From NCBI RefSeq assembly GCF_900115505.1, contig NZ_FOWQ01000003.1, positions 124,001 to 188,000 of the forward strand: 64,000 bases of DNA. Direction: 5' to 3'. The notes beneath the pieces are model-generated. The model searched no databases and had not been told where the DNA came from. It saw only the letters and a program-made list of their open reading frames with translations. This document shows, in pieces, positions 10,626 through 33,824 of the stretch (positions are counted from its first letter, which is position 1; every line of letters begins with the position of its first letter). This DNA comes from Geodermatophilus dictyosporus (GTDB taxonomy: Bacteria > Actinomycetota > Actinomycetes > Mycobacteriales > Geodermatophilaceae). The position numbers and the translations under genes were made by a program.

Positions 10626-11009
10626 GTGGCCACCTGGGCGGACGTGCGGCGCCTGGCCCTCGCCCTGCCCGGCGCCACCGAGGGCACCTCCTACGGCTCC
10701 CCGGCGTGGAAGGTGCGCGACCGCGCCTTCGTGTGGGAGCGCCCGCTGCGCCGCGCCGACCTCGAGCTGCTGGGGGAGGCCGCGCCGCACGGGCCCGTGC
10801 TCGGCGCCGCCGTGGCCGACGAGGGGGTCAAGCACGCCCTGGTCGCCGACGACCCGGCCGTCTACCTGACGACGCCGCACTTCGACGGGTACGCCGCCGT
10901 CCTCGTCCGGCTCGACGCGATCGGCGTCGACGAGCTCGCCGAGCTGGTCACCGAGGCCTGGCTGGCCCGGGCGCCGGAGCGGCTCGCCCGGGAGCACCTC
11001 GCCGGCTGA
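10626..11009 (+). CDS. MmcQ/YjbR family protein
   Basis: The 127-residue protein has the compact CyaY-like fold typical of the family: LALALPGATEGTSYGSPAWKV at the N-terminus, a central DEGVKHALVADDP region, and PHFDGYAAVLVRLDAI before a C-terminal helix with EAWLARAPERL. The family is often labelled DNA-binding because of its fold, but the function of most members is unproven. The start is a GTG just downstream of a -10 box. A hairpin terminator candidate follows, so the gene is probably transcribed alone, apart from the formate dehydrogenase operon. Confidence 0.88.
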   Translation: MATWADVRRLALALPGATEGTSYGSPAWKVRDRAFVWERPLRRADLELLGEAAPHGPVLGAAVADEGVKHALVADDPAVYLTTPHFDGYAAVLVRLDAIGVDELAELVTEAWLARAPERLAREHLAG

Positions 11010-11102: not shown

Positions 11103-14100
11103 GTGAAGACCTGGCTCGACGCCTGGCCGGTGTTCCGGCAGCTGACCGGCCCCGACCCCCTCGGTCGCGGCCGTGCCGCGCGCAGCAAGGACACGGAGTC
11201 GGTGGTGGCCCGGACCGCCACCGCCGACCGCGTCGTGCAGAGCGTCTGCCCGTACTGCTCGGTGGGCTGCGCGCAACGGGTGTACGTGAAGGACGAGCGG
11301 GTCGTCCAGATCGAGGGTGACCCCGACTCGCCGGTCAACCGCGGGCGGCTGTGCCCGAAGGGCAGCGCGAGCAAGTCGCTGGTGACCAGCCCGACCCGGG
11401 TCACGAAGGTCCGCTACCGCCGGCCGTACGGCACGGAGTGGGAGGACCTCGACCTCGACACGGCGATGGAGATGATCGCCGACCGCGTCCTGGACGCGCG
11501 CCGCCGCTACTGGCAGGACGAGTGCGACGGCAAGCGGGTCAACCGCACCATGGGGATAGCGAGCCTCGGAGGGGCAGCCCTCGACAACGAGGAGAACTAC
11601 CTCATGAAGAAGCTCTACAGCGCCATGGGCGCGATCCAGATCGAGAACCAGGCCCGCATATAGCACTCCGCCACGGTGCCCGGTCTGGGTGCCTCGTTCG
11701 GTCGTGGCGGTGCCACGAACCCCCAGCAGGACCTGATGAACTCCGACTGCATCGTCATCGAGGGTTCGAACATGGCCGAGTGCCACCCGGTCGCCTTCCA
11801 GTGGGTGACCGAGGCCAAGGCCCGCGGCGCGAAGGTCGTCCACGTCGACCCGCGCTTCACCCGGACCAGCGCGATCGCCGACCTGCACGTGCCGCTGCGC
11901 GCCGGCAGCGACATCGTCTTCCTCGGCGCGCTGGTCAACCACGTGCTGAGCAACGACCTGTTCTTCCGCGACTACGTCGTCGCCTACACCAACGCGTCCT
12001 CGATCATCCGCGAGGAGTTCCAGGACGCCGAGGACCTCGACGGCCTGTTCTCCGGCTGGGACCCCGACAGCAAGCAGTACGACCAGGCCAGCTGGCAGTA
12101 CGAGGTCGAGGACACCCCGGGCGGCGGCGTCGCCGAGGACGACCCGGCCGGCGCGGCCGAGCAGGAGCGGCTGTCCCAGCACGAGTCGGTCAAGGACTCC
12201 GACCAGGCGCACGCCTCCGGCTCCGGCGGCCCGCCGCTGCACGGCCGGGCCAAGCGCGACGAGACGCTGCAGCACCCGCGCTGCGTCTTCCAGGTCCTCA
12301 AGCGGCACTTCGCCCGCTACACCCCGGAGATGGTCGCCGAGGTCTGCGGCGTCGAGCCCGAGGCGTTCCTCAAGGTCGCCGAGTGGATCACCGCCAACAG
12401 CGGCCGGGAGCGGACGACGGCGTTCGTCTACTCCGTGGGGTGGACGCAGCACACGGTCGGCGCGCAGTACATCCGCACCGCCTCGATCCTGCAGGCGCTA
12501 CTGGGCAACATGGGCCGTCCCGGCGGCGGGATCCTGGCGCTGCGCGGTCACGCCAGCATCCAGGGCTCCACCGACATCCCGACGCTGTACAACCTGCTGC
12601 CCGGCTACCTGCCGATGCCGCACGCGGTGCAGCACCAGTCGCTCGACGACTACACCGCCGACGCGGCCGGCACCGGCGGCTTCTGGGGCAACAAGCGCGC
12701 CTACGCGGTCAGTCTGCTCAAGGCCTGGTGGGGCGACGCGGCGACGCCGGAGAACGACTTCTGCTTCGACTACGTCCCGAAGATCACCGGCGACCACAGC
12801 TCCTACCGCACCGTCGCCGACATGATCGAGGGGAAGGTCGCCGGCTACTTCCTCGCCGGGGAGAACCCCACCGTCGGGCACGCCAACGGCCGGATGCAGC
12901 GGTTCGGACTGGCCAACCTCGAGTGGCTGGTGGTCCGCGACCTGCAGATGATCGAGTCGGCGAGCTTCTGGCAGACCGCGCCGGAGATCGAGACCGGGGA
13001 GCTGGTCACCGACCAGATCGCCACCGAGGTCTTCTTCATGCCGGCGGCGTCGCACGTGGAGAAGGACGGCACCTTCACCCAGACCCAGCGGATGCTGCAG
13101 TGGCGGTTCAAGGCCATCGAGCCGCCGGGTGACTGCCGCAGCGACCTGTGGTTCTACTTCCACCTCGGCCGCATCCTGCGGGAGCGGCTGAAGGACTCCA
13201 CCGACCCGCGCGACCGCCCGCTGCTGGACCTGACCTGGGACTACCCGCTGCACGGGGAGACCCAGGACCCCAGCGCCGACGCCGTGCTGCGCGAGATCAA
13301 CGGCGTGGGCCCCGACGGCCGGGCGCTGTCGGGCTACCTGGACCTCAAGGACGACGGGTCGACGACCTCGGGCTGCTGGATCTACTCCGGCGTCTACGCC
13401 GACGAGGTCAACCAGGCGGCGCGCAAGCGGCCGGGCCGCGAGCAGGGCCAGGTGGCGTCGGAGTGGGGCTGGTCGTGGCCCTACAACCGTCGCGTCCTCT
13501 ACAACCGCGCCTCGGCCGACCCCGACGGGAAGCCGTGGAGCGAGCGCAAGAAGTACGTGTGGTGGGACGCCGAGGCAGGCCGCTGGGCGAGCACCGGCGA
13601 CGCCGTCGACTTCGAGGCGACCAAGCCGCCGGACTACGTGCCACCGCCGGGGGCGAAGGCGCAGGCGGCGCTGTCGGGCCGGGACCCGTTCGTCATGCAG
13701 AGCGACGGCAAGGCCTGGCTGTTCGCGCCGAAGGGCGTCGTCGACGGACCGCTGCCGACGCACTACGAACCGGCGGAGTCCCCGGTGGGGAACGCGCTGT
13801 ACGCGGTGCAGGCCAACCCGACGACGGAGCACATCCAGGCGCCGTACAACAGGGAGGCCCCGTCCAGCGGCGACGTCTTCCCGTACTCGGTGACCACCTA
13901 CCGGCTGACCGAGCACCACACCGCCGGTGCGATGAGCCGGACGCTGCCCTACCTGTCGGAGCTGCAGCCGGAGTTCTTCGTCGAGGTCTCTCCCGAGCTC
14001 GCGGCCGAGCGGGGTCTGGAGAACGGCGGCTGGGCCACCGTGGTCAGCCCGCGGGCGGCCATCGAGGCCCGCGTGCTGGTCACCGAGCGGATCCGGCCGC

Positions 14101-14381
14101 TGCGCACGCGCGGCGGGAAGGTGGTCCACCAGATCGGCGCCCCGTACCACTGGGGCGAGGTCGGCATCTCGACCGGCGACTCGGCCAACGACCTGCTGCC
14201 GGTGGTGATGGACCCCAACACCCACATCCAGGAGAGCAAGGCCTCGACGGTCGACATCCGGCCGGGCCGGCGGCCGCGGGGACCGGAGCTCACCGAGCTC
14301 CTGGAGGAGTACCGGAGCCGGGCGGGGATCGCCTCGGGCCGGATGCCGGTCGGCGGCCGCGTGGCCGTGGAGGGGACCTGA
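11103..14381 (+). CDS. fdhA: formate dehydrogenase catalytic subunit with UAG-encoded selenocysteine
   Basis: This is a molybdopterin bis-MGD formate dehydrogenase alpha subunit, which oxidises formate to CO2 and passes electrons to the Fe-S subunit encoded next. Read through the TAG at 11661, it has 1092 residues. Cys49, Cys52, Cys56 and Cys84 (VCPYCSVGC and RLCPKG) bind a [4Fe-4S] cluster. Residue 187, coded by TAG, is in the context NQARI-U-HSATVPGLGASF, exactly where family members have Sec or Cys as the Mo ligand. Both halves share one frame and the second half continues without a gap, so splitting it into 11103-11663 and 11676-14381 would be wrong. No Tat signal is seen. The stop overlaps the next start by one base. 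An inactive amber pseudogene is the main alternative. Confidence 0.93.
11661..11663 (+). other. in-frame TAG at the selenocysteine position (codon 187)
   Basis: The codon is TAG between ATA (Ile) and CAC (His). A normal Cys codon (TGC or TGT) or the standard Sec codon TGA differs from TAG at two positions, so one sequencing error or point mutation does not explain it. UAG-programmed selenocysteine with a CUA-anticodon tRNA-Sec has been reported in Blastococcus and Geodermatophilus. Genes ending at 21279, 36598, 49273, 61328 and 62606 use TAG as a stop, so recoding must depend on local context. Confidence 0.9.
11668..11710 (+). promoter_or_regulatory. SECIS-like hairpin for the UAG codon
   Basis: The upper stem pairs 11675-11681 with 11687-11693 (7 pairs, two of them G-U) around the 5-base loop GGTCT at 11682-11686. 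A lower perfect 7-base stem pairs 11668-11674 with 11704-11710, and a 10-base bulge lies on the 3' side. In E. coli fdhF the SelB-binding apical loop also contains GGUCU, and as I recall that sequence it begins 18 bases after the recoded codon, the same distance as here. Some of this is imposed by the conserved Gly-Leu residues, but the pairing is not. Confidence 0.75.
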
Positions 14382-15454
14382 TGACGACGGTGAGCTCGGC
14401 GAGCCCGGCCTTCACGGGCAAGGACCCGCAGAACCGGCTGTTCGGGCCGTTGCCCGACGTGGCGGCCGAGGCGGGGTACCAGGAGGACCACCCGGCGCGG
14501 GTCGGCTTCTTCACCGACACCTCGGTGTGCATCGGCTGCAAGGCCTGCGAGGTGGCGTGCAAGGAGTGGAACACGCTGCCGATGGACGACTCCTACGGCA
14601 CCCGGGACACCCTCGGCCTGTCGGGCATGTCCTACGACAACACCGGCCAGCTCGGCGCCAACACCTGGCGGCACGTGGCGTTCATCGAGCAGGTGCGCAC
14701 CGTGGACCTGCCGATGCCGAGCGTCGGACCGCCGCCGGACGCCGCCGCGAGCCGCCGCGACGGGATCGTCGACGCCCCGGACGAGGCCGAGCCCGGCGAC
14801 AGCGTCGTCACCGCGCAGACCAGCGTGCTCAACGCCGAGGCGCTCAGCGAGTACGACCCGCAGACGTCGCAGTCCGGTGACCGGGAGATCCGCTGGCTGA
14901 TGGCCTCGGACGTCTGCAAGCACTGCACGCACGCCGGCTGCCTCGACGTCTGCCCGACCGGCGCCCTGTTCCGCACGGAGTTCGGCACGGTCGTCGTCCA
15001 GGGCGACATCTGCAACGGCTGCGGCTACTGCGTGCCGTCCTGCCCGTACGGGGTCATCAACCAGCGCAAGGACGACGGCCGGGTCTTCAAGTGCACGATG
15101 TGCTACGACCGGCTCACCGACGGCCTGCAGCCGGCCTGCGCGACCGCGTGCCCGACGCAGTCGATCCAGTTCGGCAACCTCGACGAGCTGCAGGCCCGCG
15201 CCGACGCGCGCCTGGAGACGCTCAAGCGGCAGGGCGTGGAGACCGCACGCCTCTACGGCCGCGACGAGGACGACGGTGTCGGCGGCAACGGGGCGTTCTT
15301 CCTGCTGCTCGACGAGCCGGAGGTCTACGGCCTGCCGCCGGACCCGATCGTGACCACCCGGGACCTGCCGGCCATGTGGCGCTCGGCGGCCGCGGCCGCC
15401 GCGATGATGGTCGGGGTGGCGCTGTCGGCCGTCCTCGGCTCGCGGAGGCGGTGA
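14381..15454 (+). CDS. fdhB: formate dehydrogenase iron-sulfur (beta) subunit
   Basis: The 357-residue electron-transfer subunit carries four ferredoxin-type cysteine groups: C50-I-G-C-K-A-C with C60, then CKHCTHAGC with CPTGAL, then CNGCGYC with CPYG, and CTMCYDRL with CATACP. It should hold four [4Fe-4S] clusters and pass electrons from FdhA to the membrane partner. A single hydrophobic segment near the C-terminus (MWRSAAAAAAMMVGVALSAVLG) followed by Arg residues probably anchors it. An insert of about 60 residues rich in acidic residues separates the first and second clusters. The ATG overlaps the fdhA stop by one base, and its own stop overlaps the next start by four. Confidence 0.94.
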   Translation: MTTVSSASPAFTGKDPQNRLFGPLPDVAAEAGYQEDHPARVGFFTDTSVCIGCKACEVACKEWNTLPMDDSYGTRDTLGLSGMSYDNTGQLGANTWRHVAFIEQVRTVDLPMPSVGPPPDAAASRRDGIVDAPDEAEPGDSVVTAQTSVLNAEALSEYDPQTSQSGDREIRWLMASDVCKHCTHAGCLDVCPTGALFRTEFGTVVVQGDICNGCGYCVPSCPYGVINQRKDDGRVFKCTMCYDRLTDGLQPACATACPTQSIQFGNLDELQARADARLETLKRQGVETARLYGRDEDDGVGGNGAFFLLLDEPEVYGLPPDPIVTTRDLPAMWRSAAAAAAMMVGVALSAVLGSRRR

Positions 15455-16536
15455 CCGGCGTGACCGAGGGCATCACGACACCGGGTGCGGGCTGGCGGCG
15501 GGCCGGGGGTTCCGACGTCGCCGGCGACGGCGTACGGGCGTACTCCAACGGCGCGGGCCGCCGCCGGAAGGGCGGGCGGCGGGGCGGCCGCAAGGGGCGC
15601 GGCGGCGAGGTCCCGATGGTGGAGGACGTCGAGTTCACGTCCTACTACGGCCGGCCGATCATCAAGCCGCCGGTCTGGAAGAGCCCCGACGTGCCGCTGT
15701 ACCTCTTCCTCGGGGGCGCGGCGGGCTCGTCGGCCATCCTCGGCGCGCTGGCGGACGTGAGCGGCCGGCCGGCGCTGACGCGGGTGTCGCGGCTGACCGC
15801 CGGGGGCGGGTCGATCCTGTCGGTCGTGTTCCTCATCCACGACCTCGGCCGGCCCGAGCGGTTCCTGCACATGCTGCGGGTGATCAAGCCGACCTCACCG
15901 CTGTCGATCGGCTCCTACATCCTGGCGCCGTTCAGCGCCGCGGCCGGGGCGACGGCCGCGGTGGAGCTCCTCGGCTGGTTCCCGCGGCTCAAGCGGTTCG
16001 GCGGCGCGGTGGCCGCGCTCTTCGGCGGGCCGCTCGCCACCTACACCGGGGTGCTGCTGGCCAACACCGCGGTGCCGTCGTGGCACGCACCGCACCGCGA
16101 GCTGCCGTTCGTCTTCGGCGGGTCGGCGATGGCCGCGGGTGGCGGGATCACCATGGCGTTCACCCCCGTGGCCGAGGCCGGCCCGTCCCGCAAGATGGCG
16201 GTCACCGGTGCGGCGATCGAGCTCGCGGTGGTGCACCGGGTGGAGAACGGGCACGGCATCGTCAGCGAGCCCTTCCACGAGGGCCGGCCGGGGACGCTGC
16301 TGCGCGCGGCGAAGGCGTGCACGGCCGCCGGGGCGGCGGTGACCGTCGTCGCCGGGCGGCGGCGGGCCGGCGCGGTGGTGGCCGGGGCGCTGCTGGCGGC
16401 GGGCTCGCTGCTCACCCGCTTCGGCGTCTTCGAGGCCGGCATGGCCAGCGCCCGGGACCCGAAGTACACCGTCGTCCCGCAGCGCGAGCGGCTGGCCGCC
16501 CGGCAGAACGGGCACGCGTCGACCACCACTCGCTGA
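15451..16536 (+). CDS. nrfD: NrfD/PsrC-type membrane subunit of formate dehydrogenase
   Basis: The 361-residue protein has an N-terminal cytoplasmic stretch with an Arg/Gly/Lys-rich patch (about residues 30-50), then FTSYYGRPIIKPPVWKSPDVPLYLF, which introduces the NrfD bundle of about eight membrane helices. VFLIHDLGRPERFLHML is the family's quinone-site-like motif. It probably links the Fe-S subunit to menaquinone in place of a cytochrome b gamma subunit. The GTG at 15451 forms a GTGA overlap with fdhB; another GTG lies 9 bases later. A perfect 10-base hairpin follows the stop. No fdhE, fdhD or sel genes are adjacent. Confidence 0.9.
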   Translation: MTGVTEGITTPGAGWRRAGGSDVAGDGVRAYSNGAGRRRKGGRRGGRKGRGGEVPMVEDVEFTSYYGRPIIKPPVWKSPDVPLYLFLGGAAGSSAILGALADVSGRPALTRVSRLTAGGGSILSVVFLIHDLGRPERFLHMLRVIKPTSPLSIGSYILAPFSAAAGATAAVELLGWFPRLKRFGGAVAALFGGPLATYTGVLLANTAVPSWHAPHRELPFVFGGSAMAAGGGITMAFTPVAEAGPSRKMAVTGAAIELAVVHRVENGHGIVSEPFHEGRPGTLLRAAKACTAAGAAVTVVAGRRRAGAVVAGALLAAGSLLTRFGVFEAGMASARDPKYTVVPQRERLAARQNGHASTTTR

Positions 16537-33173: not shown

Positions 33174-33824
33174 GGCGGCGTCCTATCGGATGAGACGGGC
33201 TCGGTTTCGCCTCTGCTCACCGCCGGGCTATCGGCGACCAGTGCGCCCGGCGGGTCATCGCACACCCGTGTGTTGAGTATTGACGTGCGAGCGGGTGCCG
33301 GGTTGCCGACGACCCGCGCGACGTGGCCTGCGGTCCCGTTCACCCGGCGGGGTGAACGGGAGGTGAATACTTACCGCGACGTGTTTGAAGTGTCCACGGT
33401 CCGATGGCGGTGGTCTTCCGGTCGTGTCCCCGCCTTCCGGCGCGTCGGTCACGCTGCGTGCGACCACGTTGGGTCGTCTGCACGGACCGGCCGTGTACCG
33501 ACCGTGGTGGGAGGGCCTGCGAAGCCCTACTGACGGGGCTGCACGTTCCCTGACCTCACCGGGTGGGGGCCGGGCCACATGACACCGGGTGACCGTTGGC
33601 CGCCGGTCGACCAGATCCTCCCGGGCTCCCCTGACGGGATCGGCACGTCGGCGTCAGCGTGAGGCCGATGGGAGGTCGCGGGTCGGTACCGGGGGTGAGG
33701 CGGTCCTCCCCCGACCCTCCTGCGACGAGATCCCCGTCGGGTCGCGGGGCTGCGTTCGAGTACTGAGCGACTACGCTTCGGGCATCTCGCGTGACAGGAC
33801 GTAGAGCGGTCGAAGAGGTCCGAC
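33174..33824. other. 651-base non-coding region with a strong hairpin
   Basis: This is the longest gap in the window. It holds the 12-base inverted repeat at 33334-33361, flanked by AT-richer words (GAGTATTGACG at about 33275 and GAATACTTACC at about 33364) that are unusual here. Short frames on both strands lack coding bias. It should contain the promoter of the GT2 at 33173 and of the small gene at 33825. An unrecognised regulatory RNA is possible. Confidence 0.4.
33334..33361. repeat. perfect 12-base inverted repeat with 4-base loop
   Basis: The arms 33334-33345 and 33350-33361 are exact reverse complements around GGCG. No gene ends within 150 bases on either side, so a simple terminator role is not obvious. 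An operator, a small-RNA terminator or an mRNA leader structure are alternatives. Confidence 0.7.

Follow-up and report, generated by a model that had tools for sequence, protein, structure and literature searches.

In Geodermatophilus dictyosporus the gene for the catalytic subunit of formate dehydrogenase (fdhA) contains an in-frame UAG codon that is very probably read as selenocysteine (Sec). We assign a probability of roughly 95% to the explanation as a whole, namely that the UAG at residue 187 is decoded as Sec by means of a tRNA-Sec with a CUA anticodon, SelA, SelB, SelD and an mRNA hairpin, and that the product, containing Sec, is the alpha subunit of a formate dehydrogenase linked to the membrane. 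The basis for this reading is the codon, the hairpin, the tRNA, selA, selB and selD, together with their conservation, all as displayed by sequence. By the established bacterial Sec pathway, the CUA tRNA-Sec would be charged with serine by SerRS, and SelA would convert the seryl-tRNA to Sec-tRNA using selenophosphate supplied by SelD. SelB would then deliver the Sec-tRNA to the ribosome and bind the hairpin situated just 3' of the UAG; the insertion of Sec at residue 187 would have release factor 1 (RF1) as its competitor.

The locus is a further example of the published UAG-Sec formate dehydrogenases of the Geodermatophilaceae. In the part of it accessible to us, PMC5330540 describes a CUA tRNA-Sec in three Geodermatophilaceae, UAG selenoproteins of the formate dehydrogenase and UGSC types in the same family, and, in Blastococcus saxobsidens, a TAG-containing AhpC. 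It credits the TAG formate dehydrogenases and UGSC proteins to Mukai 2016, and the original prediction, which had cited that study, was right in substance on this point. Our case agrees with those accounts, as far as the accessible part of PMC5330540 describes them, in family, enzyme, codon and anticodon, and possibly concerns another species. The portions of the main texts of PMC10778597, PMC7609411 and PMC13188914 available to us contain no mention of Geodermatophil- or Blastococcus. The locus adds one more genome to a published exception and illustrates why automatic annotation could split the enzyme in two. What it brings beyond that is the family-wide pattern and a dual-code candidate; the survey of 112 genomes, the genera with a UCA anticodon, five codon changes and a fixed AUA context all go beyond PMC5330540 as described in that part.

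The fdhA frame, its UAG codon and the 3' hairpin

The features of the locus are collected in Table 1, with positions counted in the window, i.e. the whole stretch of 64,000 nucleotides that was analysed. Translation of fdhA gave 1092 codons and a final stop, with the TAG at residue 187 (context ARI-*-HSATVPGLG) as the sole internal stop, just as had been proposed in describing a single frame broken at one triplet. The GTG is the single in-frame start option downstream of a stop at position 11007. The read-through protein scored 1920.6 bits against the NCBIfam model NF041513 (cut-off 1400), and its relatives in the PDB were 1h0h and 1kqf (E about 1e-209), which bears out its identification as a formate dehydrogenase. 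Both alignments cross the TAG codon and place residue 187 opposite the X, or modified residue, of the two chains, with an ARI/V-X-H context in common; this X we take to be selenocysteine, and the TAG indeed falls at the Sec/Cys ligand position. The formate dehydrogenase-N alpha subunit of E. coli (1kqf) is an enzyme of the same type and has a modified residue at the corresponding place. In E. coli this residue is encoded by UGA and read by a UCA tRNA-Sec, and the competitor would be release factor 2, not RF1. Downstream, the FdhB protein reached 181.7 bits with TIGR01582, under the cut-off of 334.7, and the NrfD-like protein is likely to be the quinone-linked partner of FdhA. Elsewhere in the window, a c-di-GMP-II-GAG riboswitch aptamer was detected on the minus strand at 33190-33274 (43.5 bits; cut-off 40).

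Table 1. Features of the formate dehydrogenase locus of G. dictyosporus (positions in the window)
Feature	Positions	Strand	Remarks
fdhA	11103..14381	+	Formate dehydrogenase catalytic subunit, actinobacterial; GTG start; frame continues across one internal TAG
ATA (Ile) codon directly 5' of TAG	11658..11660	+	Invariant in the family fdhA copies examined
TAG codon, residue 187	11661..11663	+	Putative Sec; translation and alignment to 1h0h/1kqf
Bacterial SECIS hairpin	11676..11692	+	Fold and covariation; 6-bp core helix
fdhB, iron-sulphur (beta) subunit	14381..15454	+	Overlaps the fdhA stop by ATGA; PF13247
NrfD-like membrane subunit	15616..16536	+	PF03916, 39.7 bits (cut-off 25.8)

The hairpin with a GGUCU loop that had been predicted after the TAG was recovered in the fold, with a core helix in which 11676-11681 pairs with 11687-11692 around a loop at 11682-11686. 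To gauge its conservation we used 66 distinct 45-base orthologue sequences (23 with TAG and 43 with TGA). Standard pairing holds in 395 of the 396 core-pair cells of this set, four of the six core pairs are invariant, and the loop reads GGUCU in 59 sequences and AGUYU in the other 7. The pair 18-30 links the third positions of a Val and a Gly codon, which are synonymous sites, and it is kept in all 66 sequences through five different combinations (C-G 26, G-U 14, U-A 12, G-C 7 and U-G 7), whereas 10,000 shuffles, which ignore relatedness, left it paired in 32.6 sequences on average and in 45 at most. A further sequence from outside the set (L286) carries G-C at pair 21-27 in place of C-G, both sides having changed. 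These patterns point to a hairpin that is maintained as RNA through compensating synonymous changes.

The nearest named FdhA records came from Geodermatophilus and Blastococcus, the closest of those listed being Geodermatophilus saharensis DSM 45423 (96%), in a list that may leave out G. dictyosporus itself. In the family genomes each listed match that spans residue 187 carries one TAG, by our reading of a table that does not state the place of the stop. In a first set the codon was readable at 119 of 124 loci, with TAG at 43, TGA at 66, TGC at 7 and other codons at 3. These last three look like misplaced alignments (two are from the broken gene of genome G079), and six of the seven TGC loci are distant paralogues. 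All 43 TAG loci are from Geodermatophilaceae, and none of the TGA loci carries that family name, a few being metagenome-assembled genomes named to a higher rank (for example L164, Frankineae). Outside the family, 66 of 67 orthologues have TGA and one has TGC; this single TGC orthologue, from Plantactinospora (L205), shows GGCCTC in place of the GGTCTG loop or its close variants. A wider set of 137 loci yielded 136 usable rows (L163, which is cut off after the Sec site, was left out), made up of 69 TAG, 66 TGA and one TGC. The TAG rows comprise 57 from the survey genomes and 12 from named records, with some genomes shared between the two. Every one of the 69 readable copies from the family has TAG at the site, each with exactly one in-frame stop within the aligned stretch; among the TGA rows 61 have one such stop and 5 have two.

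The TAG might in principle stem from a sequencing or assembly error, or be an ordinary nonsense mutation in a gene that has decayed, and a broken fdhA does occur in the family. The 99% complete genome G079 has its fdhA scattered in pieces over contigs C4, C12 and C21, although it retains the CUA tRNA-Sec. The Sec-site pattern was not found in the loci L225 and L226 of this broken gene, and a TGA counted in one piece was rejected as a Sec codon since that piece begins at residue 200, past the Sec site. However, the 69 concordant copies with no further stop in the aligned stretch exclude a sequencing error, in keeping with the earlier argument against a single sequence error, and they speak against decay, as does a hairpin kept by compensating synonymous changes; we give this alternative almost no weight. 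UAG is the stop codon of RF1, and ribosomes could on that account mostly terminate here, leaving a 186-residue fragment and a second half that is separate or unexpressed, with Sec read-through being minor. In the same vein, the accessible part of PMC8124441 describes release factor 2 as a competitor of Sec insertion at UGA. Yet the frame, the active site and the hairpin are conserved across the family and the alignment to the solved enzymes spans codon 187, and we regard predominant termination as very improbable.

Decoding machinery and the tRNA-Sec anticodon in the family

A search of the 16 contigs of the G. dictyosporus genome with the Rfam tRNA-Sec model gave exactly one match above the cut-off of 47 bits, a tRNA with the anticodon CUA at C5:72136-72227 (65.3 bits). 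Seven weaker matches are other tRNAs, the best of them (46.8 bits) being a tRNA-Ser. The CUA tRNA is flanked by selD on the opposite strand and by selA-selB, whose products all exceed the cut-offs of their models (SelD, 383.6 bits, TIGR00476; SelA, 415.9 bits, TIGR00474; SelB, 264.4 bits, TIGR00475), and SelB combines a GTPase with the C-terminal winged helix PF09107. The genome with the UAG-bearing fdhA thus also holds the CUA tRNA-Sec and selA, selB and selD, the very components for which the original prediction had suggested searching. In searches for FdhA, UGSC, AhpC-TSA and AhpD-like proteins, fdhA was the sole UAG-Sec gene found in this genome.

ARAGORN labels the CUA tRNA as tRNA-Pyl (anticodon cta), which would favor reading the UAG of fdhA as pyrrolysine, and a CUA tRNA reads UAG in both systems. 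This label appears to follow the anticodon: Rfam assigned the molecule to tRNA-Sec over positions 1-91 and to no other family at E 0.01, and the structure of a tRNA-Pyl is not present. Unlike in the pyrrolysine system, the tRNA of G. dictyosporus is a tRNA-Sec encoded within a sel locus, and the UAG has a conserved hairpin on its 3' side. Moreover, this tRNA closely resembles the UCA tRNA-Sec of three genera of the same family (g5, g6 and g7), and residue 187 is the Sec/Cys ligand position. A pyrrolysine reading hence seems to us scarcely credible, and Sec remains by far the preferred identity of the residue.

We found tRNA-Sec in 108 of 112 Geodermatophilaceae genomes, and an exact pattern for the CUA form matched 101 of the 112, as against none for a reversed control pattern. 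The 11 genomes without the CUA pattern are those of g5, g6 and g7 (G066-G074) and two incomplete ones (G097 and G098). Among the 96 good genomes the CUA tRNA is present in 92, and the same 92 have FdhA. The mismatches between the two fall in genomes that are less than 90% complete, with G097 and G098 having an FdhA with TAG but not the CUA tRNA, and G035, G094 and G096 having this tRNA but lacking an FdhA match at 1e-100; G096 retains an FdhA fragment covering residues 1-125. In the sample of the order the pattern occurs in 76 of 397 genomes, 75 of them in the family, and in the phylum sample it occurs in one of 396, which is G. dictyosporus itself. The description of the phenomenon as rare accordingly holds across the phylum but fails within the family, where the CUA tRNA-Sec is the rule. 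The single match outside the family in the order sample (G230, 82% complete) is a CUA tRNA-Sec at L220 768-863 (minus strand) on contig C194, a contig of 4,845 bases which also has a selD and a partial selA 90% and 79% identical to those of G. dictyosporus. We did not accept it as a genuine CUA genome outside the family, as contamination in binning is likely, with transfer being the alternative.

In g5-g7 the anticodon is UCA wherever a tRNA-Sec was found (7 of 9 genomes). Four of the seven UCA contigs (L213, L216, L217 and L219) hold selA and selB, and these have the order tRNA, selA, selB seen in G. dictyosporus. Their SelA proteins are 63-66% identical to that of G. dictyosporus, whereas those of five CUA genomes (L072, L073, L079, L083 and L086) are 75-84% identical to it, and the lower identity in the UCA genera fits an early split. 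The CUA and UCA tRNAs of the family differ in the anticodon, in one pair of the anticodon stem at about positions 31-39 (C-G in the former and U-A in the latter) and in scattered changes. Save for a 63-residue fragment in G070, fdhA was not found in the UCA genera, and for this reason the tRNA and the codon are not comparable in one gene across the switch. The change from UGA to UAG probably took place within the Geodermatophilaceae, after the line leading to the three UCA genera had split off. Between them, the genera of the family represent either side of a change of the Sec codon, and how a codon changes its meaning without breaking the proteins that use it becomes directly testable there.

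Codon changes and the AUA context on the FdhA tree

The UGA-bearing FdhA proteins of Streptomyces, Nocardioides, Micromonospora and others are orthologous to that of G. dictyosporus, with 63-70% identity over the best segment and the same hairpin, but differ in the codon and in what precedes it. We built a tree of 96 FdhA proteins, combining a hand-chosen 36 of the 69 TAG rows with a thinned 60 of the 67 TGA/TGC rows, by a quick method with SH-aLRT support only and a midpoint root. On this tree the distribution of TAG against the rest requires at least five changes, and the starred branches alone force five. The main TAG clade contains 30 proteins. Of the remaining TAG proteins, L231 and L232 are placed next to a Mycobacterium FdhA, L229 groups with FdhA of Nocardioides and Cellulomonas, L228 and L230 lie inside a mostly Streptomyces clade, and L227 forms a separate TAG lineage. 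These six proteins (L227-L232) are extra FdhA copies of family genomes, all with AUA-UAG, and make up four lineages among TGA genes. Because the small TAG groups are surrounded by TGA genes, the most economical account is that TGA changed to TAG five separate times. The family may have acquired TGA genes that were then changed, or old paralogues may have changed along with the tRNA. That the codon tracks the tRNA of the host and not the ancestry of the gene is strong evidence for the reading of UAG as Sec.

ATA precedes the TAG in 69 of 69 fdhA copies and in all five lineages, although among the other 2699 Ile codons in these genes it appears just 50 times. In the TGA orthologues the preceding codon is mostly ATT (44) or GTT (14), with ATA in 7 and ATC in 1. 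Several FdhA lineages thus ended on one AUA-UAG context. This regularity might reflect an influence of the P site on RF1 or some constraint acting on the mRNA, both of which are guesses. An obligatory AUA before any UAG-Sec codon was rejected, since GAC precedes the TAG in the four UGSC genes that were read. Neither the five TAG/TGA changes nor the AUA context was met in the literature accessible to us, which takes in few of the subscription journals.

Other putative UAG selenoproteins and a candidate dual code

UGSC proteins (NF041046) were matched in 22 of 26 genomes of the genus, G. dictyosporus giving no match to this model. One TAG is present in 34 of the 43 listed matches, and in the four genes read it takes the first position of the UGSC motif and is followed by a foldable hairpin. 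The UGSC proteins include forms with Cys (TGC; L263-L266) and forms with an in-frame TAG (L267-L270), and some genomes have both. Among the listed matches of AhpC-TSA in the genus, at least 8 carry one TAG somewhere in their length; G. dictyosporus has five matches to it, and the four that are among those listed are all free of stops.

One genome of the genus, G058, which is very probably Geodermatophilus sp. LHW52908, combines features of both codes. It has a CUA tRNA-Sec of the family type on contig C11 and one TAG each in its FdhA and UGSC genes. A second tRNA-Sec, with the anticodon UCA (81.8 bits), lies on contig C17 (L071 1169-1263, minus strand). Two tRNA-Sec matches were seen in only one other family genome (G037), where both are CUA. 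About 300 bases from the UCA tRNA is an AhpD-like frame (L071 1579-2157, plus strand), the sole break of which is a TGA in the motif CFY-TGA-MESH. Its read-through protein scored 112.6 bits with TIGR01926 (cut-off 81.8) and gave a weak match of 51.7 bits to NF041238, an AhpD-related (seleno)protein family (cut-off 175). A fold of the first 50 bases contains a 7-bp hairpin with a GUU loop that starts 13 bases past the first base of the TGA. In G058 the CUA tRNA-Sec may serve the UAG codons of FdhA and UGSC and the UCA tRNA-Sec the UGA of the AhpD-like gene, with both sharing the one selB found; the two tRNAs are identical in their last 30 bases. This selB was the only one detected at 1e-15, a second match (37%) being judged to be another elongation-factor GTPase, and selA, selB and selD were not found on C17.

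The segment with the UCA tRNA and the AhpD-like gene (L071 1001-6000) has a GC content of 59-65%, as compared to 69-77% for the rest of L071 and 72-82% for L222, and is flanked on both sides by frames that, judged from reading, are transposase-like. A region of 3,001 bases on the same contig (C17:47000-50000) matches 25 of the 25 other genomes of the genus at 80-88% identity (best match each). A misassembly that joined the low-GC segment to this region is possible. We rate the decoding of both UAG and UGA as Sec in G058 at slightly under an even chance. If true, it would represent a portable second Sec code on a mobile segment, by which G058 would have brought the old code back in alongside the new. 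Among the titles and openings of abstracts covered, none points to a Geodermatophilus genome with two tRNA-Sec anticodons, with most subscription journals lying outside this coverage. A plasmid search with the AhpD-like gene returned 327 records, none of which reached 60% identity, and a close copy was found only in G058 among the 397 genomes of the order. More distant AhpD-like genes, 32-36% identical and with one internal TGA each, are present on G164:C40, G261:C42 and G419:C2, and these are possible selenoproteins.
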